IMG/VR virus record: IMGVR_UViG_3300023192_005275
Coordinates: 1 to 51,477 of that record
Length of the DNA stretch: 51,477 nucleotides
From: a virus
Strand: one strand, 5' to 3'
The notes under the pieces are model-generated. The model saw only the letters and a program-made list of their open reading frames with translations, had not been told where the DNA came from and did not search any database. The translations under genes and the position numbers were made by a program. The stretch's first letter is position 1. Every line of letters begins with the position of its first letter. This document shows, one piece after another, positions 5,830 through 44,445 of this stretch.

Positions 5830-7077
5830 ATGAAACTCCTACTTGAAAGCTGGCGACAGTATCTAAATGAAGTTTCTTTTTCAGATGCAAAAGAAATCCT
5901 TGATTCTAAACGCACTTTAAAGATTATTAAAGCATATCGCTATGATAACGATCAGGATGATACAATTAAAAGCTGGGACGCTCCATTGATAGGCACTCAA
6001 CACCGTAATTTTAGAAACTATCTTCTCGATCATATCCCCGATGATTTAACTGATAACCAAAAGGGCACTTCTGTTCTCTGGTTGCTAAAACTATCAAGAG
6101 AAGACCCAAAAGTTGCTGCTGAATTTATTAATGGTCGTATTACGATTGGTCCTCGACGCAGCCTTGAAACATTTTTTCATCATCAGCGATTTATGCCTAG
6201 ACAAGATCTAATGCAAATCAAGACCATGGAAGATCTTGTTGCTATGACTTATGCAGCAAAAGAGGAAATTCAAAAAGCACAAGATAAAAAGAACTATCTT
6301 GATGCAGAACAAGGTACAGAAATTTTTAGAAATGATGATAAGTGGACTATCGCGGCACTTCACAATAAAGGTGCTGCATGCGAACTCGGCAAAAACACCG
6401 ATTGGTGTACTGCTGCTCCCGGTTTAGATTATTTTGAAGATTATTATAAAGAAGATGATCCTTTGTTTTATTTCCAAAATAAAAGCAATTTAAATAAATT
6501 TCAGTTCCACTATGGTTCATCTCAATTTATGAATTCGAAGGATGAGCGGGTTGATAAAGAATCTTTTGAAGTATTACACGATATGCTTACTCAAACAGAG
6601 GCATACAACAAATATGAGAAGCTTCGGAGATTTGATTTAGAGAGGTTGGTGAAAATACGCCTAGTTGATGGACCGCATGCGCAGGCGCAGATAGATGAGA
6701 TGAGGGAAATTCTGAATTCTTTAGAAGATCCTTATGCTATGGCGAACACGCTAGCAGAAATGGCAACTCTAGATCATTTTAATATTCCAACATATGTTTT
6801 AAGGTGGTTAGCTAGCGAAGAGTTTTATGAATATACTGGAGTTGCTAGAAGAATTGTTAAATATTATGATATTGTTCCTTCGGATATCTTGGAGGATATA
6901 GCAGAAAATAATCCACAAGAGAGAACAAGAGAGATGGCTAAAAATGTTTTAGAAAAGAGAAGTGCCTCAACTCCTGCTGCAGCAAGCTTGCGTGGTTCAC
7001 AATCAACATCAGCTGCGGATCCGTATGCAGCGCTCCAAGAACGCTTCAAAAAGTTCAGAATAGGGATAATTAAATGA
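5830..7077 (+). CDS. Tag B protein with W-C-T-A domain (415 aa), paralogue 1
   Basis: It starts M-K-L-L-L-E-S-W-R-Q-Y-L-N-E, the tag B peptide, followed by V-S-F-S-D-A-K-E-I-L. Residues about 180-235 hold the hallmark N-K-G-A-A-C-E-L-G-K-x-T-D-W-C-T-A-A-P-G, then F-E-D-Y-Y, P-L-F-Y-F and F-H-Y-G-S-x-Q-F-M. This W-C-T-A/Y-Y/L-F-Y pattern recurs in phage proteins of unknown activity. A C-terminal extension of about 130 helical residues, ending in an Ala/Ser-rich stretch, is absent from the paralogue at 7325. The gene ends in an ATGA overlap with the next tag B gene. Probable internal head protein; biochemical role unknown. Confidence 0.7.
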   Translation: MKLLLESWRQYLNEVSFSDAKEILDSKRTLKIIKAYRYDNDQDDTIKSWDAPLIGTQHRNFRNYLLDHIPDDLTDNQKGTSVLWLLKLSREDPKVAAEFINGRITIGPRRSLETFFHHQRFMPRQDLMQIKTMEDLVAMTYAAKEEIQKAQDKKNYLDAEQGTEIFRNDDKWTIAALHNKGAACELGKNTDWCTAAPGLDYFEDYYKEDDPLFYFQNKSNLNKFQFHYGSSQFMNSKDERVDKESFEVLHDMLTQTEAYNKYEKLRRFDLERLVKIRLVDGPHAQAQIDEMREILNSLEDPYAMANTLAEMATLDHFNIPTYVLRWLASEEFYEYTGVARRIVKYYDIVPSDILEDIAENNPQERTREMAKNVLEKRSASTPAAASLRGSQSTSAADPYAALQERFKKFRIGIIK

Positions 7078-7328
7078 AACTCCTACTTGAAAATTGGCGG
7101 AAGTATATGAAAGAAAATATTGATCTTGATATTAAGGTTGGTGATGTTCTATTGGGCGGCAGATACAAAAATAAAAGAATTGTAGTTAAAGAAATAGGAA
7201 TCGATGAATTAGGTCAGCCAACTATTAATGGTAAACCTATTTTAAAATTTAGAATTGAAAAAAACCTACCAGATGAAAAAAAAAGCAAGAAGACTTTAGA
7301 AACAGAAAAAAAGGATTCTAAAGAATGA
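7074..7328 (+). CDS. Tag B protein, small beta domain (84 aa)
   Basis: The tag M-K-L-L-L-E-N-W-R-K-Y-M-K-E is joined to a short beta-barrel-like segment (I-K-V-G-D-V-L-L-G-G-R-Y-K-N-K-R-I-V-V-K-E-I) reminiscent of small SH3-like or KOW-like folds. The tail is highly charged and Lys-rich. It overlaps both neighbours by ATGA, so three tagged genes are translated in series. No enzyme motif is visible. Confidence 0.65.
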   Translation: MKLLLENWRKYMKENIDLDIKVGDVLLGGRYKNKRIVVKEIGIDELGQPTINGKPILKFRIEKNLPDEKKSKKTLETEKKDSKE

Positions 7329-8164
7329 AACTCCTATTTGAAAATTGGCGTCAGTATTTAAATGAAGTTTCCTTTGCAGACGCCAAAGAAATTCTTAATT
7401 CTAAAAGAACAGTAAAAATTATTAAAGCGTATCGTTACGACAAAGAGCAGGGTGATGCAGTTGATAGTTGGGACATGTCATTGCCACGCACTCAACATCG
7501 CAACTTTATAAACTACCTCCTCGATCAAATCCCAGACGATTTAACAGACAATCAAAAAGGTTCTTCTGTATTGTGGCTGTTAAAATTGTCACGAGAAAAT
7601 CCAAGTTATGCAGCTTCTTTTATTGAGGGGAGCACAAACCGGTTCCGCAATGTCTGGGATCATCTCGAAACCTTTTTCCATCACCAACGCTTTATGCCTC
7701 AACAGGATTTGATGCAAGTTAAATCAATCGAAGATCTTGAAAAAATGGCAGAAGATGCAAAAGAGGAAATTCACGCAGCACAAGAGAAAAAGCAATATCT
7801 AGATGCAGAAGTTGGCACGGAAGTTTTAAGAGATGATGATGAATGGTTTATCGCCGCTATTCATAATAAAGGTGCTGCTTGCGAACTGGGCAAACAGACC
7901 GATTGGTGTACTGCTGCTCCTGGTTTGAATTATTTTGAGGATTATTATGAACCAGATGATCCGCTGTTTTATTTTGAACAGCGAGAATCCAATTTAGAGG
8001 GAATGGTTGTTGGCAAGTGGCAGTTTCATTATGGATCTGAACAATTTATGGATCGTAATGATCGCGAGGTTCCAGAGAAGCAATTTAAATTTCTTACCCG
8101 TCTCCTCAGACAAACAGAAGCATATAAGAAATATCCAATCATAACAGCCCGGTCTGGCTTGTGA
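7325..8164 (+). CDS. Tag B protein with W-C-T-A domain (279 aa), paralogue 2
   Basis: It starts M-K-L-L-F-E-N-W-R-Q-Y-L-N-E and is clearly homologous along its length to the protein at 5830, keeping N-K-G-A-A-C-E-L-G-K-Q-T-D-W-C-T-A-A-P-G and the downstream F-E-D-Y-Y and F-H-Y-G-S. It is shorter: after Q-T-E-A-Y-K-K-Y it leaves the paralogue's sequence and stops. The +1 frame from about 8145 continues as plausible coding sequence, so this copy may be truncated by a frameshift. Tandem duplication with a small tagged gene in between indicates local expansion of the family. Confidence 0.7.
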   Translation: MKLLFENWRQYLNEVSFADAKEILNSKRTVKIIKAYRYDKEQGDAVDSWDMSLPRTQHRNFINYLLDQIPDDLTDNQKGSSVLWLLKLSRENPSYAASFIEGSTNRFRNVWDHLETFFHHQRFMPQQDLMQVKSIEDLEKMAEDAKEEIHAAQEKKQYLDAEVGTEVLRDDDEWFIAAIHNKGAACELGKQTDWCTAAPGLNYFEDYYEPDDPLFYFEQRESNLEGMVVGKWQFHYGSEQFMDRNDREVPEKQFKFLTRLLRQTEAYKKYPIITARSGL

Positions 8165-8267
8165 GAGGGGTGTGGATGAAGACGAGCCCATTGTTGAAGA
8201 TATTGCGCGCCTATTTGAAAATTGGCAAGAGTGCTTAAATAAAAATGAAACATCTTATAGACCATAA
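8145..8267 (+). pseudogene. Frameshifted relic containing a tag B-like peptide
   Basis: The frame here is open from just after a TAA at 8142-8144 to TAA at 8265-8267. It includes E-D-I-A-R-L-F-E-N-W-Q-E-C-L-N-K-N-E-T, whose middle matches tag B (L-F-E-N-W-R-x-Y-L-N-E). No properly spaced start codon precedes the motif; a GTG at 8172 is too close to a GAGAGGGG. It is either the frameshifted end of the 7325 gene or the decayed 5' end of another tagged gene. I see no evidence that it is translated. Confidence 0.45.
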
Positions 8268-8454
8268 TGAAACATATTTAAATCATATGCTGTTTGCCGG
8301 TAAAATTGGTTTAACCTTGATGCTTAGAGGTCTTGTTTTTTTATTACATGCTGTTTTTCCACTTTGCAAAATTCCGAGAAGGTGGAATCTTTCTAATACG
8401 TCTACGAAAATAGCAGAATGGAACTCATATACCATTAGGAGATTGAAAGAGTGA
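8245..8454 (+). CDS. Small possible membrane protein (69 aa)
   Basis: This ORF starts at an ATG inside the relic region and has one hydrophobic stretch (I-G-L-T-L-M-L-R-G-L-V-F-L-L-H-A-V-F) followed by a basic tail. Its TGA overlaps the next GTG start (GTGA), the linkage typical of the real genes here, which supports translation. It has no tag and no recognised family. It might be a remnant created when a tagged gene decayed. Confidence 0.4.
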   Translation: MKHLIDHNETYLNHMLFAGKIGLTLMLRGLVFLLHAVFPLCKIPRRWNLSNTSTKIAEWNSYTIRRLKE

Positions 8455-8822
8455 AAGTACTATTTGAAAATTGGCGAGTATATTTAAAAAACATTGGAAA
8501 GACTTTTCCTACAATTACAAAGTTAGATATTATAGAAAACCCTGCTCAAAATGTTCATCAAAAAAATGCATTATTAAATATGTTTGGAACATTGCAGCGC
8601 ACCACCAACACAAACCCAGAAGATGGGGTTACAATACAAAATATTTTAACTTCCATTTATAATTATAGTGGCAATTCTGAGGAATTCAAATATAAGTCTA
8701 AAGAAGATGCGTTGCGTGATTATGTGGAACCATATAAATATGGAGACAAAAGCTTAAAAGATCACCATAAGCGGATTCAAAATATCATTTATGACTTGAC
8801 ACGGCATAAATTACGGATATAA
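8451..8822 (+). CDS. Tag B protein of unknown function (123 aa)
   Basis: It starts at GTG with M-K-V-L-F-E-N-W-R-V-Y-L-K-N, a tag B in which the usual final Glu is Asn, so the presumed protease site may be weakened or lost. The body is mixed helical, with Q-N-I-L-T-S-I-Y-N-Y and a basic C-terminal helix (H-K-R-I-Q-N-I-I-Y-D-L-T-R-H-K-L). No motif was recognised. Overlap with the preceding frame and a short gap to the next tagged gene keep it within the cassette array. Confidence 0.65.
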   Translation: MKVLFENWRVYLKNIGKTFPTITKLDIIENPAQNVHQKNALLNMFGTLQRTTNTNPEDGVTIQNILTSIYNYSGNSEEFKYKSKEDALRDYVEPYKYGDKSLKDHHKRIQNIIYDLTRHKLRI

Positions 8823-8829
8823 TAGAAGA

Positions 8830-9813
8830 ATGAAAAATGCGTTTGAAAATTGGCGAGAATATTTGAAAGAAGAAGAAGTTGTTACTTTTGATTTTGATTC
8901 TACGTTGTCTCTTTCTCACTGGGGCAAAGAAGAAGATAATTGGGTTCATGATGGACCTTATCTACCTATGATTAAAATGTTCAAACAATATAAAAATAAG
9001 GGGTATAAGGTTTATATAGTAACTTCTAGATATTCTAAATTTGAAAAAGATGCTGAAATGGTAGAAAACCAACGCTCAGTTAAAGAATTTGTCGAAGAAT
9101 ACCACTTATATCCAGATGGAATTATTTTTACGGATGGAAATTTAAAAGCCGATACATTAAAATCACTTAATTCTTTAATTCATTATGATGATGATCCCGT
9201 GGAAATTCAAGCTGCTGAAGAAATAGGCATAAAGACAGTCCTTGTCGATCCATACAAGGAAAACATGCATCAAGTTGATGAGAATAAAGCTCCAAGAGAT
9301 ATAAATAAGATATCTAAAGTCATCATTTATAATAAAAATGGTCAAATTTTAATATTAAAACGAACAAATGGAGAACAAAATTGGGATTTACCCGGTGGGC
9401 ATCTCCAAAAAGAGGAAGATTTTATTGCGGCAGCCAAGAGAGAAACAAAAGAAGAAACAAATTTAACTATTTCCGACATAAAACCCATGGAAACCTATAG
9501 AAATATAAATATATATAAAACAGCATGCCCCAATGAGGATATACGCCTACAACCCAAAGAACATGTGGACTTTAAATGGGTTAATCCAAAGGATGTTCAC
9601 CAATATAATATGAGAAAATACTTAAAATTGGCAGTTTTAAAAGCCTTCGATGCGATGAAAGAAGATTTTCAACACGATGTCAAAAAGAATTATACAAAAC
9701 TTAAATTTAAGCTGCTGGGTGGAGGAGGAAACAAGTATAATGTGGGTGGAAAGATGAAAAAACCCTCTTATAAACGTTCAAAAAGTGCCCCCACGGGCTT
9801 TGGAGGAAGTTAA
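8830..9813 (+). CDS. Tag B HAD-NUDIX fusion protein (327 aa)
   Basis: Tag B (M-K-N-A-F-E-N-W-R-E-Y-L-K-E) is followed directly by a HAD-like domain: motif I D-F-D-S-T-L at about residues 20-25, S-R near 66, and the acidic motif Y-D-D-D-P near 118. Residues about 155-270 form a NUDIX hydrolase with the box G-G-H-L-Q-K-E-E-D-F-I-A-A-A-K-R-E-T-K-E-E, fitting G-x5-E-x7-R-E-x-x-E-E. HAD enzymes remove phosphates and NUDIX enzymes cut nucleoside diphosphate-linked compounds, so a role in nucleotide or NAD metabolism is likely. The C-terminus is Gly/Lys-rich and possibly disordered. The tag suggests packaging in the head; substrate unknown. Confidence 0.8.
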   Translation: MKNAFENWREYLKEEEVVTFDFDSTLSLSHWGKEEDNWVHDGPYLPMIKMFKQYKNKGYKVYIVTSRYSKFEKDAEMVENQRSVKEFVEEYHLYPDGIIFTDGNLKADTLKSLNSLIHYDDDPVEIQAAEEIGIKTVLVDPYKENMHQVDENKAPRDINKISKVIIYNKNGQILILKRTNGEQNWDLPGGHLQKEEDFIAAAKRETKEETNLTISDIKPMETYRNINIYKTACPNEDIRLQPKEHVDFKWVNPKDVHQYNMRKYLKLAVLKAFDAMKEDFQHDVKKNYTKLKFKLLGGGGNKYNVGGKMKKPSYKRSKSAPTGFGGS

Positions 9814-9820
9814 TAATATA

Positions 9821-10009
9821 ATGATTACCATTTCTCGAATTAATTTTAAAATTATTGATTTTTTAAGTGAAAAAGAAAAAAAAGAGCAAGAAAAGGAACA
9901 AAGCCGTCCTTATGCTCAACTGCCGCTACCAAACAAGCCCCATAAGCCCCCCAAAGATGAAAAAAAAGATAAAAAAGGCGGCGGCGGGGCGATTATAATA
10001 GATATATAA
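9821..10009 (+). CDS. Small Lys/Pro-rich protein with Gly-rich end (62 aa)
   Basis: The ATG at 9821, just after the HAD-NUDIX stop, is preferred to one at 9785 inside that gene; GGAGGAA lies upstream although somewhat far. The product has a hydrophobic N-terminal strand (I-S-R-I-N-F-K-I-I-D-F-L), a charged Glu/Lys run, a Pro-rich linker and the C-terminal G-G-G-G-A-I-I-I-D-I. Low complexity suggests a flexible linker protein. No function was recognised. Confidence 0.45.
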   Translation: MITISRINFKIIDFLSEKEKKEQEKEQSRPYAQLPLPNKPHKPPKDEKKDKKGGGGAIIIDI

Positions 10010-10028
10010 TTATATAAGCGTTTATGTC

Positions 10029-10223
10029 ATGGCTGCATTATTTAAAAAAGGAGATCTTGTTTGTTTTGATTTGACGCATCAATACGGATTAGTTTTAGAA
10101 GCGAAAGCCTTTGATGGGTTTGAAGAATGGAAAGATGAACCTTTTATACAGGATGTATTGGTGCGATGGATCGATGGTAAAGAGTTTTGGTGTTTAAGTT
10201 TTACTTTGAAACCAGTTAACTAA
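10029..10223 (+). CDS. Small SH3-like beta protein (64 aa)
   Basis: A short beta-rich protein: F-K-K-G-D-L-V-C-F-D near the start, G-L-V-L-E-A-K, then D-V-L-V-R-W-I-D-G-K-E-F-W and a final strand. The pattern K-x-G-D-L-V ... V-x-W-x-D-G is common in small phage SH3-like domains. It lies between tagged genes but has no tag. No catalytic residues are visible. Function is unknown. Confidence 0.55.
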   Translation: MAALFKKGDLVCFDLTHQYGLVLEAKAFDGFEEWKDEPFIQDVLVRWIDGKEFWCLSFTLKPVN

Positions 10224-10231
10224 TTAATAAT

Positions 10232-10579
10232 GTGAAACTATTACTTGAAAATTGGAAAACCTACCTCAACGAGCAATTAGTCAAATATCAGATGGAAGTG
10301 CTTTTAAGAGCTGAACCAGATACACAACTCTACGGTACCGTATTTGAAAAAATAAGGGCGATTGAAGGTATAACTGTTATAAAAACTACCGAATCCATGC
10401 ATAAAGATTCTCAAGGAAACAAAAATGTAAAACTTAATATTAGATTTATGGTCAATCCTGCCTTGGGTACCCGGTATTTAGCTTTTCTAAGAAGCAAGCT
10501 CCAAACTATAAAAGATGATGAAGGTGATCGTATCATTTCTGTAAAAATTTTACAATTGCCTAAAAAAATTGATTTTTAA
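10232..10579 (+). CDS. Tag B protein, ferredoxin-like body (115 aa)
   Basis: It starts at GTG with M-K-L-L-L-E-N-W-K-T-Y-L-N-E, the last tag B in the window. The body alternates helices and strands (V-L-L-R-A-E-P-D ... I-T-V-I-K-T-T-E-S ... V-K-L-N-I-R-F-M-V ... I-I-S-V-K-I-L), which resembles a beta-alpha-beta ferredoxin-like domain. No active-site pattern is seen. It is followed by a probable promoter, so it likely ends the tagged-gene unit. Confidence 0.65.
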   Translation: MKLLLENWKTYLNEQLVKYQMEVLLRAEPDTQLYGTVFEKIRAIEGITVIKTTESMHKDSQGNKNVKLNIRFMVNPALGTRYLAFLRSKLQTIKDDEGDRIISVKILQLPKKIDF

Positions 10580-10637: not shown

Positions 10638-12821
10638 TTGCCTACGGTAAAAAAATGTTTTTGGATGTTTGTGATATTTATTTTTTTTCTGCTTGGCGCT
10701 ATATCTTGTACGGAAGAAAAAGAAGGCGCAACTAGCAATTCAACTCCTCATCACTATCCTGATATAACCACGGAAGATGTGACCGAAACAACACCATCTG
10801 CAGATGTAGAAGCACCCGAAGACATTCCCGAAGATACTTACGAAAAAGATTGTTTAAGAGAAATATATTATTATTGTCCCCCATTAGATGAAATGAATCG
10901 CGCCAAAGCTTTAGTAGATATATGTGATGATAATAGGGTTTTATCTATTAGTGACTGTGAAGAAGTGTTGGAATGTATACCAACTCCTGCTGTTGTTGCA
11001 GTTGAGGAATGCGAAAAGGATGGAATGAAGGGGTATCTTAATGTTTATTGTTTTAAAGGATTTTTTGAAAAAGGACCGTGTGATCCCTGCGATCTGGAGA
11101 TCTGTGACGGGATCGACAATGACTGTGATGGATTAACGGATGAAGGAAAATATGATTGTAAATCTGAATGTGGAGCAGGATCAGCAGTGTGTGTAGGGGG
11201 GAAAATTGTTGAGTGCGATGCGCCGAAACCTGAAGTGGAAATTTGTGATTATTTAGATAACGACTGCGATGGGGAAATAGATGAGGGGCTCACAAATAAC
11301 TGCGGCGAGTGTGGCAAAGAACCTGAAGAAATTTGTGACCACTTGGACAACGACTGCGACGGTGAGACAGACGAGGGGCAATTAAATGATTGCGGGGAAT
11401 GTGGACCCGATTTAGATGAAATTTGTGATGGCATTGATAATGACTGCGATGGTTTAATAGATGAGGAATTGGTAAAGGAATGCTTTACTGATTGTGAAAA
11501 GAGTTTAGAATATTGCATAGGGGGGCAATGGGTTTGCACTGCTAAGAAACCATTGCCAGAAATCTGTAATGGATTAGATGATGATTGTGATGGAAAAGTC
11601 GATGAAGGTTTACAATGCTTGTGTACGATGCAAGATCTAGGCGTATTAATGCCCTGTAAAGAATCTCCTCTTATTTGTGGAGAAGGGTATAAAACCTGTG
11701 AATGTATAGATAAAAAATGCTCGAAATTACAACTAACAGAATGTTTTGCTGTATGTCATTGGCTTCCACAGCTTTTGCCTCCAAATGCTATATGTGATAA
11801 GCTTATGGGCATTTCAAAACCCGAAGAATGCAATAACCATGATGATAATTGCAATCAATTGGTAGATGAAAATCTTTTTGGCGTGTGTTATAGTGGACCA
11901 CCAGAAACAATGGGAATTGGCATATGTGAAGCAGGAATGCTACTGTGTTTTGAAGGCAAGTGGGGCAATTATGATGATAATAATGGTTTTATTAAAAAGC
12001 TTTGTTTGGGAGAAATTACCCCTGAACCTGAAGATATTTGTAATGGTACCGATGCCAATTGCGACGGAAAGATAGATGAAGATAAGCAACTAACACCAAC
12101 GGATATTCTTTTTATTGTAGATCTTTCAGGATCCATGTTTGAGGAAATTAATGCAGTTATGACAGCGTTAAATAAATTTGCTACCTATTATAGTGATTCT
12201 GAAGTTGTAAAATGGGGGTTAGTATTCACCGCTTCAACAGGAAATAGTAATTCGTCATGGAAAGAAAGGGTAGTACTACAAACCAATCTTGTTGATTTTA
12301 AAACATTTATTAGTATTTTTCAAAATTCTGGTTATTCTTTAGACGGGGGATATGAACAAAATTATGATGCTATATATTTATCCATACATAATTTGGTAAG
12401 TCAGGCAGCGCTTCCTTATTTGGTGACAGACTTAAAATGGATAGAACTGGGATGGGGAGGCGCAATAGGAGAATCTATACCTCCGAAAGAGCAATGGAAT
12501 ATTAGTTGGAGAAACGATGCAAAGCATGTAATAATATTATTTTCTGATGAAGAAGGGCAATCTTATTTGGTACCAAAGATCACAGAATCGATTTTGGTAC
12601 AAATGATTAGTGTAGCTATTGATTTATCGATTTATGTATTTAGTGAAAAATATATACTGGATGGCATATGGGGGGACAGCTATATACCTTTAATTCAAGC
12701 GGGTGCCGGTGGTAAAGCATATGAACTTAAAACTAAAGCTATAGAAATATATAATAACTTATTGGAAATTTTAGAAGAAACAGCGTGCAGTCAGCAGAAA
12801 ACAAATTCTCCCTCTCCATGA
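10638..12821 (+). CDS. MopE-repeat and vWA-domain lipoprotein (727 aa)
   Basis: It starts at TTG after AGAGGA. A signal peptide with a hydrophobic core (V-I-F-I-F-F-L-L-G-A-I-S-C) suggests lipidation at about Cys25. Residues about 150-485 carry seven Cys/Asp repeats of the MopE metal-binding type (E-I-C-D-G-I-D-N-D-C-D-G-x-x-D-E). A von Willebrand A domain follows, with the MIDAS motif D-L-S-G-S at 495-499 and a later L-F-S-D-E-E. MopE repeats are typical of secreted or surface proteins of Myxococcota and other deltaproteobacteria and bind Ca or Cu. No standard phage role is known; a surface adhesin, a receptor-binding accessory or host-derived cargo are possible. It overlaps the next gene by 4 bases. 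Confidence 0.8.
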   Translation: MPTVKKCFWMFVIFIFFLLGAISCTEEKEGATSNSTPHHYPDITTEDVTETTPSADVEAPEDIPEDTYEKDCLREIYYYCPPLDEMNRAKALVDICDDNRVLSISDCEEVLECIPTPAVVAVEECEKDGMKGYLNVYCFKGFFEKGPCDPCDLEICDGIDNDCDGLTDEGKYDCKSECGAGSAVCVGGKIVECDAPKPEVEICDYLDNDCDGEIDEGLTNNCGECGKEPEEICDHLDNDCDGETDEGQLNDCGECGPDLDEICDGIDNDCDGLIDEELVKECFTDCEKSLEYCIGGQWVCTAKKPLPEICNGLDDDCDGKVDEGLQCLCTMQDLGVLMPCKESPLICGEGYKTCECIDKKCSKLQLTECFAVCHWLPQLLPPNAICDKLMGISKPEECNNHDDNCNQLVDENLFGVCYSGPPETMGIGICEAGMLLCFEGKWGNYDDNNGFIKKLCLGEITPEPEDICNGTDANCDGKIDEDKQLTPTDILFIVDLSGSMFEEINAVMTALNKFATYYSDSEVVKWGLVFTASTGNSNSSWKERVVLQTNLVDFKTFISIFQNSGYSLDGGYEQNYDAIYLSIHNLVSQAALPYLVTDLKWIELGWGGAIGESIPPKEQWNISWRNDAKHVIILFSDEEGQSYLVPKITESILVQMISVAIDLSIYVFSEKYILDGIWGDSYIPLIQAGAGGKAYELKTKAIEIYNNLLEILEETACSQQKTNSPSP

Positions 12822-13235: not shown

Positions 13236-14258
13236 ATGATTGCAGATATTGTTGTCGATCTTCAATACGGAGATTGTGGAAAAGGTAAAGTAACTCATCA
13301 TCTTTGTAAAATAGGAGATTATACGCATGTTATTAGATACAACGGGGGATGCAACGCGGGTCACACCATTTTTCATCAAGGAAAGAAATTTATCACCCAT
13401 CATATTCCTGCCGGGGTCTTTTTCGGCATTAAGTCTATCATTGGTCCTGGGTGTGTTCTTAACATTAATCAATTTTTTAAAGAGATAGGTGAATTGGAAG
13501 ATGGAGGGATTAAAACCAGCGGGCTTATATACATCGCAAAAAACACTCATATTATTACAGAAAAGCATCTCATGGAAGACAGCAAAGATACAACAATAGG
13601 CACTACAAAAAAGGGAAATGGTCCCGCCTATAGAGATAAGTATGACAGAAAAGGGATTAGAGCAGAACAAATACCTGAATTAGAGCCATACCTAGTTGAT
13701 ATTTATGAGGAATTACATATTAATTCAAAAAATCCCATAATATTATTGGAGGGCGCGCAAGGCTTTGGATTAGATATCGATTGGGGTGACTACCCTTATG
13801 TTACTTCTAGTCACTGTACCGCAGCTGCAGCTCTTTTAAATGGCATACCCCCACAAGCCATTAGAGATGTTTGGGGGGTTGCAAAGGCTTATGAGACATA
13901 TGTCGGCGCAAAAAAATTTCATGGAGAAGATCCCATCTTCGATCATATTCAAGAAATTGGTGAAGAGTATGGGGCAACTACAGGAAGAAAACGACAAGTT
14001 AATTGGATGAATATTAGTTTATTACGAAAAGCTGCGCAAATCAATGGAGTAACGCATCTTGTAATCAATAAAATGGACATTTTGAATAAAATAAAAAAAT
14101 GGTCAGTATATAATCCCCAAGCACCCCACACAAAAGGAGAGCGAGAAAATTTAGTTGATTTTTTAGCAGCCAATGGTTTAAGCACATTTATACAAATGGA
14201 ACTTAAAAATACCGCAGTTAACAATTTTTATTTTTCAGAGTCTCCGCACTATATTTAG
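13236..14258 (+). CDS. purA: Adenylosuccinate synthetase, short phage form (340 aa)
   Basis: The enzyme family joins IMP and aspartate with GTP on the route to AMP. Visible signatures: Y-G-D-C-G-K-G-K at 11-18 with catalytic-type Asp13, N-A-G-H-T at 40-44 with the catalytic His43, G-A-T-T-G-R-K-R-Q near 250 for substrate binding, and N-K-M-D at 278-281 for the guanine of GTP. At 340 residues it is much shorter than bacterial PurA (about 430) and close to archaeal and phage PurA/PurZ proteins. The usual G-W-x-D after the Arg motif is N-W-M-N here. Retention of Asp13 argues for PurA or a PurZ0-like intermediate rather than true PurZ, but I cannot settle the substrate. Confidence 0.85.
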   Translation: MIADIVVDLQYGDCGKGKVTHHLCKIGDYTHVIRYNGGCNAGHTIFHQGKKFITHHIPAGVFFGIKSIIGPGCVLNINQFFKEIGELEDGGIKTSGLIYIAKNTHIITEKHLMEDSKDTTIGTTKKGNGPAYRDKYDRKGIRAEQIPELEPYLVDIYEELHINSKNPIILLEGAQGFGLDIDWGDYPYVTSSHCTAAAALLNGIPPQAIRDVWGVAKAYETYVGAKKFHGEDPIFDHIQEIGEEYGATTGRKRQVNWMNISLLRKAAQINGVTHLVINKMDILNKIKKWSVYNPQAPHTKGERENLVDFLAANGLSTFIQMELKNTAVNNFYFSESPHYI

Positions 14259-18433: not shown

Positions 18434-18826
18434 ATGTCTTGGAAAAGAAAAAAAAAGAAAAATTTATCCAAATATCAACAATACAGTCTAATAAACAAGC
18501 TTAAATCTGAAGAAAAAATAACCAATCAAACTTTAAATAATATCAATAGTTTATCTTTAGAAGATTTAATAGCTATTAAATTAGAATTGACTTCTAGGTT
18601 TGTATGTGGTAAGTTTTATGGACTGCCGCTGTGGCGAATTACGAAGCAAACTGTAGTCGATGCTCTTTTGAAAACAGCTTTAAGCATATGCCGAACAAAA
18701 AAAGAAGGCGCTAGATTTCTTGGAGTAGACTACGTAGAGTTTAACAGGCTCATTAAAAAATATCAGACTGTTTCATTTTTTGAATCTCCTTATGGGGGTG
18801 AAACGGTTTCGACAGAGGAAGAATAA
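18434..18826 (+). CDS. HTH-like protein whose 3' end overlaps tmRNA (130 aa)
   Basis: The N-terminus is very basic (K-R-K-K-K-K-N-L). The C-terminal part, A-L-S-I-C-R-T-K-K-E-G-A-R-F-L-G-V-D-Y-V-E-F-N-R-L, looks like a Fis-type helix-turn-helix. The last eleven codons (Y-G-G-E-T-V-S-T-E-E-E end) are formed by the 5' acceptor and D-like region of tmRNA from 18794 onward, so the same bases serve as coding sequence and structural RNA. It may bind DNA as a regulator; target unknown. Confidence 0.6.
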   Translation: MSWKRKKKKNLSKYQQYSLINKLKSEEKITNQTLNNINSLSLEDLIAIKLELTSRFVCGKFYGLPLWRITKQTVVDALLKTALSICRTKKEGARFLGVDYVEFNRLIKKYQTVSFFESPYGGETVSTEEE

Positions 18827-19101
18827 AATTAACGTGCAAGGCTGTGTGAGTGCGCACAGTAAAAACACTCAACCTTTTAACTGCCAACGATAATGTTGAA
18901 GTTGCTTATGCCCTAGCGGCATAAGCATGGGGTGGTAGTTGCCTTATTAACCAAAACTACAAATAAAGGTTTGTTTATTTTCCTTTTTCAAAAATTAACA
19001 AACGTTGCTTTTGTGCTTGTTGGAGCCTAAAACCAACTAACCTTGTGAATGACGTGGTTTTTGATCTTTTCTGGACTCGGGTTCGACTCCCGACACCTCC
19101 A
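18794..19101 (+). ncRNA. ssrA: tmRNA (transfer-messenger RNA)
   Basis: All the key parts are present. The 5' G-G-G-G-G-U-G (18794-18800) pairs with C-A-C-C-U-C-C (19094-19100), followed by discriminator A and no encoded CCA. The conserved GAAACGGTTTCGACAG follows the 5' stem, and a T-arm TCGGG-TTCGACT-CCCGA precedes the 3' stem. The resume codon GCC at 18883 opens a reading frame for ANDNVEVAYALAA ending in TAA at 18922-18924; the final codons lie in an 8-bp hairpin (18905-18912 with 18918-18925), as in classical tmRNA helix 5. The tag ends in A-L-A-A, the ClpXP degron. tmRNA rescues ribosomes stalled on broken mRNA, which would be plentiful if the phage degrades host transcripts. Confidence 0.95.
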
Positions 19102-19151
19102 CTTTTTAAATTATCTATAAAAACCTGATAGGATAATCTTATTAATACCCG

Positions 19152-19382
19152 GTGATCAATGTGGAAGAAAAAATAAATAAAATCTGGCAAACTTGTGGAA
19201 TATTTGAAACCTTTACAGAAGCCAATAAAAGAAAAAAAGAACTTGTAGCGCTTCATCAGCTTGTACAAGTAAAAAGATGTGGAAACGCAGGAATGAGATA
19301 TAAAGTGAAGGTTTGGGATGAACCTAAACGCGCCCCTGTCGATGGCTCGCGCAAATCTAAGAAAAAAAGGAAAGAAAAATAA
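19152..19382 (+). CDS. Small basic protein (76 aa)
   Basis: It starts at GTG (19152; a second GTG at 19161 is possible). The product has an N-terminal helix, a central beta-like part with a single Cys (V-K-R-C-G-N-A-G-M-R-Y-K-V-K-V-W) and a strongly basic tail (R-K-S-K-K-K-R-K-E-K). It probably binds nucleic acid, by charge only. Its stop overlaps the next start by one base. Confidence 0.5.
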   Translation: MINVEEKINKIWQTCGIFETFTEANKRKKELVALHQLVQVKRCGNAGMRYKVKVWDEPKRAPVDGSRKSKKKRKEK

Positions 19383-41599: not shown

Positions 41600-42514
41600 A
41601 TGTATAAAAGGGTTCTAGTATTAGGGGGGACAGGTTTTGTAGGAAAAAATCTTCAACACTTAAGACCAAACTGGATATATTTTGACAGAAAGAAGTGGAA
41701 ATGCAAAGATACACTTTTAAACCTACAAAAAACGTTAAATATGTATAAATATTACCAGCCTGACGCTGTTTTACACTTAGCTGCTAGGGTAGGAGGCATT
41801 AAAGATAATTCTGCCAATCAAGCCGTCTTTTTTTATGAAAATACGATTATTAATACAAATGTGATTCAAGGTGCTTATTTAAGTAATATTCCAAGAGTTT
41901 TGTCTTCTCTGAGTACCTGTGCTTTTCCCAACATTGTAAAACAATATCCTTTTTCGGAGAAAGCCCTTTTTTCGGGACCACCAGCTGAAACGAATTTTTC
42001 TTACGGTTTTACAAAGCGAATGCTTCACGTGCAAAGTGTTTCTTATAGAAAGCAATATGATTTAAATTATTCTACTTTTTGCCCTTCTAACATATATGGT
42101 CCACAAGATCATTTTAATTCGGAGAATTCGCATTTTGTTGCCGCTCTGGTGAGCAAACTATACAATGCTAAGGATAAAGATGTCCTAGAGTTTTGGGGAA
42201 CAGGAGAACCAAAGCGACAACAGCTTTATGTTAAAGACTTGATTCAAATCATTCCCCTTCTATTAGAGAAACATAACACTGATTTACCTTTAATTGTAGC
42301 GCCTAAAGAAAATTTAAGTATATTAGAGATGGTGAATATTGCTTTAAATAAATCTGAAAAAAATGTTACCATTGGGTTTAATAACATGTTCGATGGACAA
42401 TTTAGAAAAGATGGGGATAATACTAATTTGTTAAAATTAATTGGAGATTTTAAATTTACTCCTTTTCAAAAAGGGTTTAATGAAACCTACAAATGGTATA
42501 AGGATAACCTATGA
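41600..42514 (+). CDS. GDP-fucose/GDP-colitose synthase-like epimerase-reductase
   Basis: An SDR with L-G-G-T-G-F-V-G at 8-15 and the Fcl signatures H-L-A-A-R-V-G-G-I, F-Y-E-N-x-x-I-N-T-N-V-I, L-S-T-C-A-F-P (Ser and Cys of the active site) and Y-G-F-T-K (catalytic Tyr, Lys). G-T-G-E-P-K-R-Q-Q-L-Y-V-K-D-L is also typical. The family epimerises and reduces GDP-4-keto-6-deoxymannose to GDP-fucose, while ColC does so on the 3-deoxy form. The neighbouring ColD-like gene favours the colitose version. Confidence 0.85.
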   Translation: MYKRVLVLGGTGFVGKNLQHLRPNWIYFDRKKWKCKDTLLNLQKTLNMYKYYQPDAVLHLAARVGGIKDNSANQAVFFYENTIINTNVIQGAYLSNIPRVLSSLSTCAFPNIVKQYPFSEKALFSGPPAETNFSYGFTKRMLHVQSVSYRKQYDLNYSTFCPSNIYGPQDHFNSENSHFVAALVSKLYNAKDKDVLEFWGTGEPKRQQLYVKDLIQIIPLLLEKHNTDLPLIVAPKENLSILEMVNIALNKSEKNVTIGFNNMFDGQFRKDGDNTNLLKLIGDFKFTPFQKGFNETYKWYKDNL

Positions 42515-44445
42515 ACAAAGTACAATTAGTTCAGTTAAATAACAAGTACGGTAATCAAGTTTATCTTCCTTATAGCGTTGGTATATTGCAATCTCATACC
42601 TGTCAGGATAATTTTATATCTGATAATTTTAAATTTAATGAATTTATATTTGTCAGAGAAAATGTTCAAAAAATGATAGAGAGAATTGGTGACGCTGATA
42701 TTCTTGGAGTTTCTTGTTATGTATGGAATTGGAAAATTAGTTTAACTTTAGCGGAAGAATACAAAAAAGCATACCCAGATTCCTTGATTTTGTTTGGAGG
42801 TCCACAAGTTCCGGACAAGCCGGAAAATTTCTTTGAAAAGTTTCCCTTTATAGATCTTTTGTGCCATGGCGAAGGCGAAAATACTTTTTATGAGATTTTA
42901 ACTAGGTATGCAAAAAATGAAGATTTAAAAATAATAGAGTCGTGTACTTATAACGATAGGGAAAATTCAAAAACAATTACAAATCAAAAACGTGAAAGAA
43001 TTCAAGATCTTAATATCATAGCTTCTCCTTATTTAACTGGTATGTTTGAAGATATAATGAACAAGTATGATTATAAATGGATGGCTACTTGGGAAACAAA
43101 TCGCGGTTGTCCGTTCAAGTGTACTTTTTGTGATTGGGGCTCTCTAATAGCATCAAAAGTTAAAAAGTTCGACGAGCAACGTTTATACGATGAGATAGAC
43201 TATTTCTCAGATCATAAAATGGATTTAGTTTTCGGGGCAGATGCTAATTTTGGAATGCTTCGACGTGACAAAAACTTTTCAATCAAACTGGCAGAGAAGA
43301 AGATGGATACAGGATATCCAAACCAGTTCCGCGTATGTTTCACAAAGAATACAACCAATAAGGTTTTTGAATTAGCACAAATATTTGCAGATGCGGGAAT
43401 GAACAAGGGCGTTTCTTTGAGTATGCAATCCTTAAATCAAGACACCTTAAAGGGAATTAAAAGAGATAATATAAAGCTTAGCTTTTTTAAAGATTTGCAA
43501 CAAAAATATGTTGCAGCAGGTTTGGTAACATACACGGAATTAATCTTACCGCTACCCGGAGAAACATATGAATCGTTTGTTCTTGGGATCGATAATCTTC
43601 TAGATAGTTCGCAACACTCAGGTATTGTAGTTTATAACTGTACTATTATGCCCAATGCAGAAATGGGAGACCCTGAATATCAAAAAACTTATGGTTTGGA
43701 CATGATTGAAATTCCTATTTTTCAAGCACATTCTGACGAGAAAGAAGACGATATAATTGAAAATGAGACAATTGTTGTCGGTACGAATACCATGAACAGA
43801 GAACAATGGATTAAGACTTTTAAATTTTCATGGACCATACAATGTATGCATATGCTTGGCTTACTTCAGGCAATTGCCATATTATTTAGATATAAATTTG
43901 GTGTCGAGTATAGTGATTTTTACCAAAGATTATTGTCACATAGCGCAAAAACAGATACAATCATCAATCAAGAATTAGCGAATTTAGATAATTTGTTGAA
44001 TGGTGTTTTAAATGGAAACGGCTTTGATCAACATGTCGACGGATTCGAAACGATATCTTGGCCAACAGAAGAAGCTAGTTTTTTGAGAATATCTGATAAG
44101 GTTAACAAATTTTATGAAGAGATTAAAGTTTTTACACAAGAAGAATTCCCAGAGCTGGGCGGAGAAAGGAAATTAATTGATGGATTAGTAGAATATCAGA
44201 AATATTTAATTGTAAAATATAATAACAATAATGATATATTAAAGTCAGAGTATGATTTTCACAATTACTTTGTCCAACGCCGCGCAGGAACATTATCGGA
44301 GCTAGAAAAAGGAAACTATATTAACAAGCTAGCAGAGACTAAAAATTATGAAGGGGACAAAAAATTATTCTCTAGAGAAATAGTTTGGTATGGTAGAAAG
44401 GGCGGCAAATTTTTTAATCCTATAGATGTTGGAAAAGATATATGA
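42511..44445 (+). CDS. B12-binding-type radical SAM protein (644 aa)
   Basis: Residues about 60-140 resemble the cobalamin-binding fold that precedes many radical SAM domains (L-G-V-S-C-Y-V-W-N, I-L-F-G-G-P-Q). C-P-F-K-C-T-F-C at 200-207 is the C-x3-C-x2-C cluster, and F-x-G-A-D-A-N-F-G and L-P-L-P-G-E-T follow as in the class B family. Such enzymes do methylation or C-C chemistry on sugars, lipids or peptides. Here it sits between the Fcl/ColC-like and Gmd genes with 4-base overlaps on both sides, so a sugar substrate is likely but not shown. C-terminal 200 residues unassigned. Confidence 0.8.
   Translation: MNKVQLVQLNNKYGNQVYLPYSVGILQSHTCQDNFISDNFKFNEFIFVRENVQKMIERIGDADILGVSCYVWNWKISLTLAEEYKKAYPDSLILFGGPQVPDKPENFFEKFPFIDLLCHGEGENTFYEILTRYAKNEDLKIIESCTYNDRENSKTITNQKRERIQDLNIIASPYLTGMFEDIMNKYDYKWMATWETNRGCPFKCTFCDWGSLIASKVKKFDEQRLYDEIDYFSDHKMDLVFGADANFGMLRRDKNFSIKLAEKKMDTGYPNQFRVCFTKNTTNKVFELAQIFADAGMNKGVSLSMQSLNQDTLKGIKRDNIKLSFFKDLQQKYVAAGLVTYTELILPLPGETYESFVLGIDNLLDSSQHSGIVVYNCTIMPNAEMGDPEYQKTYGLDMIEIPIFQAHSDEKEDDIIENETIVVGTNTMNREQWIKTFKFSWTIQCMHMLGLLQAIAILFRYKFGVEYSDFYQRLLSHSAKTDTIINQELANLDNLLNGVLNGNGFDQHVDGFETISWPTEEASFLRISDKVNKFYEEIKVFTQEEFPELGGERKLIDGLVEYQKYLIVKYNNNNDILKSEYDFHNYFVQRRAGTLSELEKGNYINKLAETKNYEGDKKLFSREIVWYGRKGGKFFNPIDVGKDI

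Follow-up and report, generated by a model that had tools for sequence, protein, structure and literature searches.

A phage tmRNA gene that begins inside, and in frame with, the end of a probable Fis-like regulator gene

What happens to a protein-coding message whose last codons are also the first nucleotides of an RNA that is cut free during maturation? The question is raised by a linear IMG/VR virus record of 51,477 bases, analysed whole (the window), which carries a one-piece tmRNA (ssrA) at 18794-19101 on the + strand, running from G1 to the discriminator A73, with the CCA not encoded (CACTTTTT). We examined whether the tmRNA is complete, how it is joined to the gene upstream, here called u18434, and what the junction may do.

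The tmRNA gene and its viral relatives

ARAGORN called a tmRNA at 18794-19102 (+) with the tag ANDNVEVAYALAA followed by a stop codon, the tag frame occupying nucleotides 90-131 of the gene. The covariance-model search that a first-pass annotation had proposed gave a match to Rfam RF00023 over the full model (1-374 of 374); it scored 116.5 bits, where the gathering score is 47, and with an E value of 6.4e-45 it is not due to chance. Both programs start the gene at 18794 and end it at 19102 and 19104, respectively; A73 lies at 19101. The acceptor stem, T-arm, resume codon, tag and stop-containing hairpin of which that annotation had spoken are all intact, and the D-loop region GGTTTCGAC was found in the tmRNA sequence as well. 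ARAGORN and Rfam detected no second RNA gene in the 51,477-base record; no match to the permuted tmRNA family RF04321 was obtained there, the two-piece order was not encountered, the ARAGORN call being one-piece, and none of the Rfam riboswitch families matched.

We aligned 14 distinct viral sequences, this record included, to nine helices written by hand from this record and the relative L002. Of 812 cells, 90.5% were paired, compared with 35-47% in slid controls, and 21 of 58 pairs showed changes on both sides, against a shuffled mean of 10.9 (none of 500 shuffles was as high) and at most 9 in the slid versions. The acceptor stem was paired in 100% of cells, with both-side changes at two pairs; PK1 (helices 3 and 4) was paired in 98.6% and 98.8% of cells, PK4 (helix 8) in 100%, with both-side changes in three of its five pairs, and the P5 stop-codon hairpin (helix 5) in 89.7%. 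G3-U70 was GU in all 14 aligned sequences and in all 69 distinct tmRNAs collected (see below). The PK2 and PK3 stems, drawn from L002, were paired in 77% and 62% of cells, and two hand-written PK3 pairs almost never form; these stems hold less well because this record's own stems differ from those of L002. The pseudoknots on which the first-pass annotation had staked its reading were thus borne out, with covariation, for PK1 and PK4, but only partly for PK2 and PK3.

A search with the neighbouring 773-aa protein returned 18 related viral loci, which were not chosen by tag. Six of them have a tmRNA at the same position, with tags of the form ANDNVE(F/I)(D/E)YA(L/V)AA. That the gene is phage-encoded, structurally intact and, as far as its sequence can tell, should work in trans-translation agrees with its place in a whole virus record and with these six relatives. 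A tag-pattern search added 64 viral stretches, most of them tmRNAs by ARAGORN, and in total 69 distinct viral tmRNAs were collected, a collection partly selected by tag. An AN(D/N)NVExx(Y/F)A-type tag is present in 50 of the 69, with that partial selection, and other ANNN tags (e.g., ANNNNHFEQRLAA) in 18; the remaining one has an odd ARAGORN frame. At L074 (1403-1836, - strand), a locus that came from an ANDNVExxYA-type pattern, ARAGORN reads the odd tag VAIKKVLKSAGRLNYIRTI; the tmRNA there is long, and the program probably picked the wrong frame. The V-E-V-A interior, earlier taken to be odd and to mark proteins differently, does not stand out in this family, where N-V-E is the rule in the partly tag-selected set: the V-A pair alone is unique (1 of 50, this record), and an A at the second variable position occurs in 2 of 50. 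By sequence, the tag interior therefore appears only slightly unusual. A similar tag, ANSNVASAYALAA, occurs in a Streptomyces phage group. Tags ending in ALAA are read by ClpXP-type proteases.

The exact tag had no match in viral_contigs. Since its last 12 residues, NDNVEVAYALAA, had no match in GTDB genome contigs and the looser pattern ANDNVxxxYA?AA had four alphaproteobacterial matches only, three of them two-piece tmRNAs with ANDNVAPAYAVAA, it is plausible that the tag differs from the host's; no host was assigned from these matches. SmpB (PF01668) was found in none of the 49 records searched, this one included (the control was positive in 10 of 14 genomes), so that the phage tmRNA presumably uses host SmpB. 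Among named phages, the tmRNA of a relative had no blastn match.

The tmRNA itself is a phage tmRNA of an already known type, and phages carrying tmRNAs are not new. The earlier remark that they are uncommon is fair, though the fact was already known: the Melnitz study (PMC9004378) gives a count of 402 tmRNA-bearing genomes among 18,146 from phages. A 2014 survey, to judge from the portion available, lists them in eight mycobacteriophages, phage G and DS6A (PMC4131195), and similarly partial texts describe tmRNA and SmpB in huge phages (PMC7162821) and tmRNA in Bradyrhizobium phages (PMC12656738). Roles guessed at in the parts of this literature available include keeping translation going, recycling host proteins and sensing host state.

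Other genes in the window deserve mention in their own right. In two regions, 486-2125 and 5830-10579, numerous genes that are otherwise unlike one another have N-termini of the type MKLTKxxLKxIIxEEL or MKLLxENWRxYLNE, which we take to resemble the peptides that direct packaged T4 internal proteins to the capsid. An adenylosuccinate synthetase-like gene at 13236-14258 (PF00709, 281 bits; GDCGKGK kept) also belongs to PHROG 1211, annotated '2-aminooxy adenylosuccinate synthetase', and is possibly linked to a modified adenine in the genome. The 727-aa lipoprotein-like protein at 10638-12821, with DNDCDG repeats and a Cu-binding_MopE match (PF11617, 81 bits), is unusual phage cargo. Over ~20 kb, 25378-45443 holds apparent sugar-nucleotide, glycosyltransferase, epimerase and aminotransferase genes, judged from translations; the sole gene tested there, at 42511-44442, is Radical_SAM plus B12-binding.

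The overlap with the upstream gene

The first-pass annotation did not contain the overlap between the tmRNA 5' end and u18434 (Table 1). Exactly 120 codons of u18434 (360 bases) precede tmRNA nucleotide 1, at which codon 121 begins, so a codon boundary of u18434 falls exactly where RNase P is expected to cut, just ahead of G1.

Table 1. Features at the junction of u18434 and the tmRNA, in window coordinates
Feature	Position	Strand	Details and basis
u18434, 130 codons, probable Fis-like helix-turn-helix protein	18434-18826	+	ORF; homologs
In-frame overlap, 33 nt	18794-18826	+	tmRNA nt 1-33 = u18434 codons 121-130 (GGETVSTEEE) + TAA
Acceptor stem, 5' strand	18794-18800	+	Pairs with 19094-19100; GGGGGTG/CACCTCC, G3-U70 wobble
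P2, inner part	18835-18841	+	Pairs with 19041-19047; alignment helix 2
Pseudoknot PK1	18842-18871	+	18842-18846/18855-18859 and 18847-18852/18866-18871; helices 3 and 4
Tag reading frame ANDNVEVAYALAA, resume codon GCC, TAA stop	18883-18924	+	ARAGORN, sequence
P5 hairpin with end of tag frame and stop codon	18904-18926	+	18904-18912/18918-18926, 9 bp; helix 5
PK2 region, stem GTAGTT/AACTAC	18935-18960	+	Sequence only; relatives have a different stem
PK4 stem GTTGG/CCAAC	19019-19037	+	Helix 8; GTCAG/CTGAC in most relatives
T-arm TCGGG/CCCGA	19077-19093	+	Helix 9
Downstream gene, 76 aa, no assigned function	19152-19382	+	ORF; often adjoins the tmRNA in relatives

Homologs of u18434 were present at all 18 of the first related loci. 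As a single query, u18434 found no relative in viral_contigs, but a 13-member alignment did, from which the best 80 of 141 were taken; tblastn of the protein against 50,697 phage records gave no match, and among viral structure models one 128-aa protein was 66% identical to it. HTH_8 (PF02954, Fis family) was matched by 17 of 49 u18434 homologs at E ≤0.1 (best 4.8e-05), and this record's own protein did not match HTH_8 at E 0.1. In a PDB profile search the top hit was a 185-residue chain named CAP REPEAT (E 0.00025, with just 32 residues aligned), and the helix-turn-helix hits were Fis (1fip, E 0.045) and an NtrC-family regulator (4l5e, E 0.17). Foldseek ranked Fis first (1etq, prob 0.98, E 0.31), with no match below 0.001. 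u18434 is thus a probable Fis-like DNA-binding protein. In an AlphaFold model made from 49 sequences (pLDDT 77.8), which replaced a 13-sequence model (pLDDT 58.9), the final helix extends to residue 117, and pLDDT is <50 over residues 120-130. Since the tail lies beyond that helix and is modelled with such low confidence, loss of the part encoded by the tmRNA would probably leave the domain whole.

Both genes are intact, and their overlap is conserved. It is in frame 0 in all 17 distinct overlapping viral tmRNAs, which belong to related proteins and are not 17 independent events. Its length is 33 nt in ten (this record, L002, L003, L004, L015, L034, L044, L050, L096 and L131, with L034 and L050 near-copies) and 39 nt in seven (L029, L046, L053, L065, L072, L111 and L125), which places the regulator stop codon at tmRNA nucleotides 31-33 or, in the relatives with the longer overlap, 37-39. 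In 25 relatives with separate genes (u18434-linked ANDNVE tmRNAs), the relative frames are distributed 8/8/9. Other long frames, which are not u18434, enter the tmRNA in L067 and L089, also in frame 0, and end far inside it. Between the conserved FFE of u18434 and the tmRNA lie linkers of one codon (N, H, Y, E, T, D or S), three codons (SPY) or four codons (KERH, NERN or DERN), and in L015 two residues follow FFD. As these linkers differ by whole codons, the frame has survived codon-sized insertions and deletions. In the overlap clade, u18434 evolves under purifying selection: dN/dS is 0.07-0.14 in six of eight pairs (0.070, 0.087, 0.071, 0.098, 0.133 and 0.139; a seventh gave 0.316 at a dS of only 0.10, and the eighth was saturated). 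Five non-overlap u18434 pairs gave 0.048-0.099.

A tree of 80 u18434 homologs, built by a quick method on 118 columns with many forks open, omitted duplicates and proteins of <100 residues, such as that of L015. Within it, one 34-row group (support 87) takes in all 15 overlap proteins along with L006 and a tmRNA-less 18-row clade (support 98). Rfam found a tmRNA in none of 13 records of that clade, which reach 138.6 kb (e.g., L005) and may be fragments; the tmRNA-less label is confined to this clade, since L042 and L154, given it in the tree, have a tmRNA in their records by Rfam, and for L026 and L156 it is not relied upon. u18434 and its neighbours are kept in place in the tmRNA-less clade, which offers a natural comparison for the need of a phage tmRNA. 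On this tree the overlap label has to change three times, and the simplest account is one fusion, one tmRNA loss and one re-separation in L006, in an order that is not proved. The lack of overlap in L006, together with the 18-protein sister clade in which no tmRNA was found, counts against the reading favoured below.

Maturation, tagging and competing explanations

RNase P maturation and the tagging of non-stop products are known from other tmRNAs. The stop codon of u18434 is part of the tmRNA sequence and is read in the same direction, so any message of that gene that includes it would also include the tmRNA 5' end. Given that tmRNA 5' ends are made by RNase P (PMC3985003, in the part of the text available), maturation should strip such a message of its stop codon. 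The predicted cut at tmRNA nucleotide 1, 30 nt before the u18434 stop codon, would leave a stop-less message ending after codon 120, and ribosomes reaching the message end would stall with an empty A site. The phage tmRNA, borrowing SmpB, AlaRS, EF-Tu and the CCA-adding enzyme from the host, would then rescue them and add ANDNVEVAYALAA, so that residues 1-120 would receive a degradation tag. Tagging could limit the regulator or, as for ArfA, make it sense rescue capacity.

On balance, we favour the reading that a working phage tmRNA is fused to the end of a regulator gene and that its maturation yields a non-stop message and a tagged regulator in an ArfA-like manner. One shared transcript, translation of the non-stop message and either consequence for the regulator would all be part of it. 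More tentatively, the transcript may give either full-length regulator or mature tmRNA plus a non-stop message tagged by that same tmRNA, and the regulator would then gauge free trans-translation capacity; this extension is possible rather than probable. u18434 has no clear ribosome-binding site upstream, which counts against the non-stop reading.

It is also quite possible that this is an ordinary phage tmRNA and that the overlap reflects genome compaction after deletion of a spacer, with no regulatory consequence, most u18434 coming from ribosomes that trail RNA polymerase and terminate before the tmRNA has been fully transcribed. u18434 and the tmRNA adjoin throughout the group, with spacers from 36 nt up. 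The in-frame TAA at tmRNA nucleotides 31-33, in a P2 strand, is also found in non-overlapping relatives (e.g., L006, L027, L035 and L051), so that the stop belongs in part to the tmRNA itself, and the short, harmless overlap that frame 0 gives may be the sole reason for its being kept. The spacers of relatives contain elements that appear to have been lost as by deletion: a (G/A)(T/A)TCTTT element of the GTTCTTT type (as in GTTCTTTAAAATAT), with an apparent likeness to boxA antitermination sites, occurs within 20 nt upstream of 17 of the 25 separate tmRNAs and 1 of the 17 overlapping ones, and a promoter match beating 95% of shuffles lies just upstream of 9 of 25 and 1 of 17, respectively. Consensus-like spacer promoters, with a best score of 14.5, were found in L036, L069, L071, L073, L075, L087 and L088, the maximum in the overlap set being 10.9. 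These differences fit, and do not prove, spacer deletion in the overlap clade. What compaction accounts for less readily is that frame and overlap outlived whole-codon changes in the linker; moreover, RNase P cleavage would make non-stop messages anyway, harmless or not.

In this record no sigma70-like promoter was detected on the + strand from 18300 to the tmRNA, and no terminator was found; this, like the rarity of promoter matches before overlapping tmRNAs, also speaks for the favoured reading. Overall promoter scores did not differ significantly between overlapping and separate tmRNAs (Mann-Whitney p 0.33), and for that reason a tmRNA promoter could still lie inside u18434. Upstream of u18434, a promoter reached a shuffle p ≤0.06 in 3 of 15 overlap loci (L029, L046 and L072), compared with 0.28 in this record. 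TATCAYA was considered as a general phage promoter before u18434 and rejected, only one of its seven + strand copies in the window lying near a gene start.

The u18434-tmRNA spacer of eight relatives (L056, L068, L070, L076, L078, L082, L086 and L089) holds a conserved structured RNA of ~150 nt, a candidate regulatory RNA before the phage tmRNA. Its long outer stem encloses a hairpin, and GACTC pairs with GAGTC (30 pairs by RNAalifold, 16 with both-side changes). It had no Rfam family of its own at the gathering score in the seven loci scanned (all but L056). The permuted tmRNA family RF04321 overlapped the normal tmRNA in 5 of 10 relatives scanned (L070, L076, L078, L086 and L089); a duplication intermediate toward a permuted tmRNA was considered and rejected, as in our judgement the upstream piece appears to be part of the separate structured RNA with its own outer stem.

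Somewhat unlikely, in our estimate, is that the viral tmRNA is mainly a replacement that stays intact when host tmRNA is degraded or when a defence nuclease or toxin cuts it, the differences in tag then being incidental. In GTDB contigs no one-piece tmRNA with the family's tag patterns was found, and the G3-U70 pair is kept throughout the family, but the sister clade does without a tmRNA. That a fragment of host ssrA was carried along through integration or imprecise excision is very improbable: ssrA is a common integration target, as the accessible text of PMC12656738 also indicates, but the gene is complete at both ends and syntenic in 6 of 18 related loci, its tag was not found in GTDB contigs, and compensatory changes have occurred within the viral family.

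If the more tentative extension is true, an ArfA-like circuit was reached by a different route, and the regulator would be a built-in gauge during infection. Should tmRNA maturation remove the stop codon of a neighbouring regulator, ribosome rescue and the control of phage genes would be linked in a concrete way that can be tested, and the u18434 message would be a natural substrate of tmRNA with a known end. The overlap also shows that a protein gene can have its last codons in common with a structured RNA over long periods.

Comparison with known systems

The conserved in-frame fusion of a tmRNA and a regulator gene, in which the expected processing site falls on a codon boundary, appears to be new. 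The titles and abstract openings of the phage-tmRNA and non-stop literature, in which few subscription papers are covered, mention no tmRNA that overlaps a protein gene.

Like the Fis/NtrC-type DNA-binding proteins (PF02954), u18434 has a probable helix-turn-helix, at approximately residues 66-110; it differs from them in extra N-terminal helices, and all matches are weak. One-piece tmRNAs are likewise carried by the mycobacteriophages Bxz1, Cali and Wildcat, Bacillus phage G and Streptomyces phage StarPlatinum, and one-piece tmRNAs of RF00023 share with this one the G3-U70 tRNA-like domain, tag frame and pseudoknots. Here the tmRNA 5' end lies inside a protein gene, whereas in StarPlatinum and Kumao the preceding annotated gene ends 21 and 139 nt before the tmRNA. 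The marine phage Melnitz, in the portion of its description available (PMC9004378), likewise has a tmRNA adjoining a transcription-related gene; its tmRNA is permuted and two-piece, with a predicted glutamine riboswitch, in contrast to the one-piece tmRNA and upstream Fis-like gene described here.

The closest parallel is ArfA (YhdL) of Escherichia coli. According to the available part of PMC3985003, the arfA mRNA is cut by RNase III before its stop codon, and the tagged product is degraded through trans-translation unless trans-translation is in short supply. For u18434 the corresponding cut and tagging are predicted. Here RNase P would take the place of RNase III, and the fragment removed would be the tmRNA; the protein is also of another kind, u18434 being probably Fis-like, with no ArfA match in family searches.
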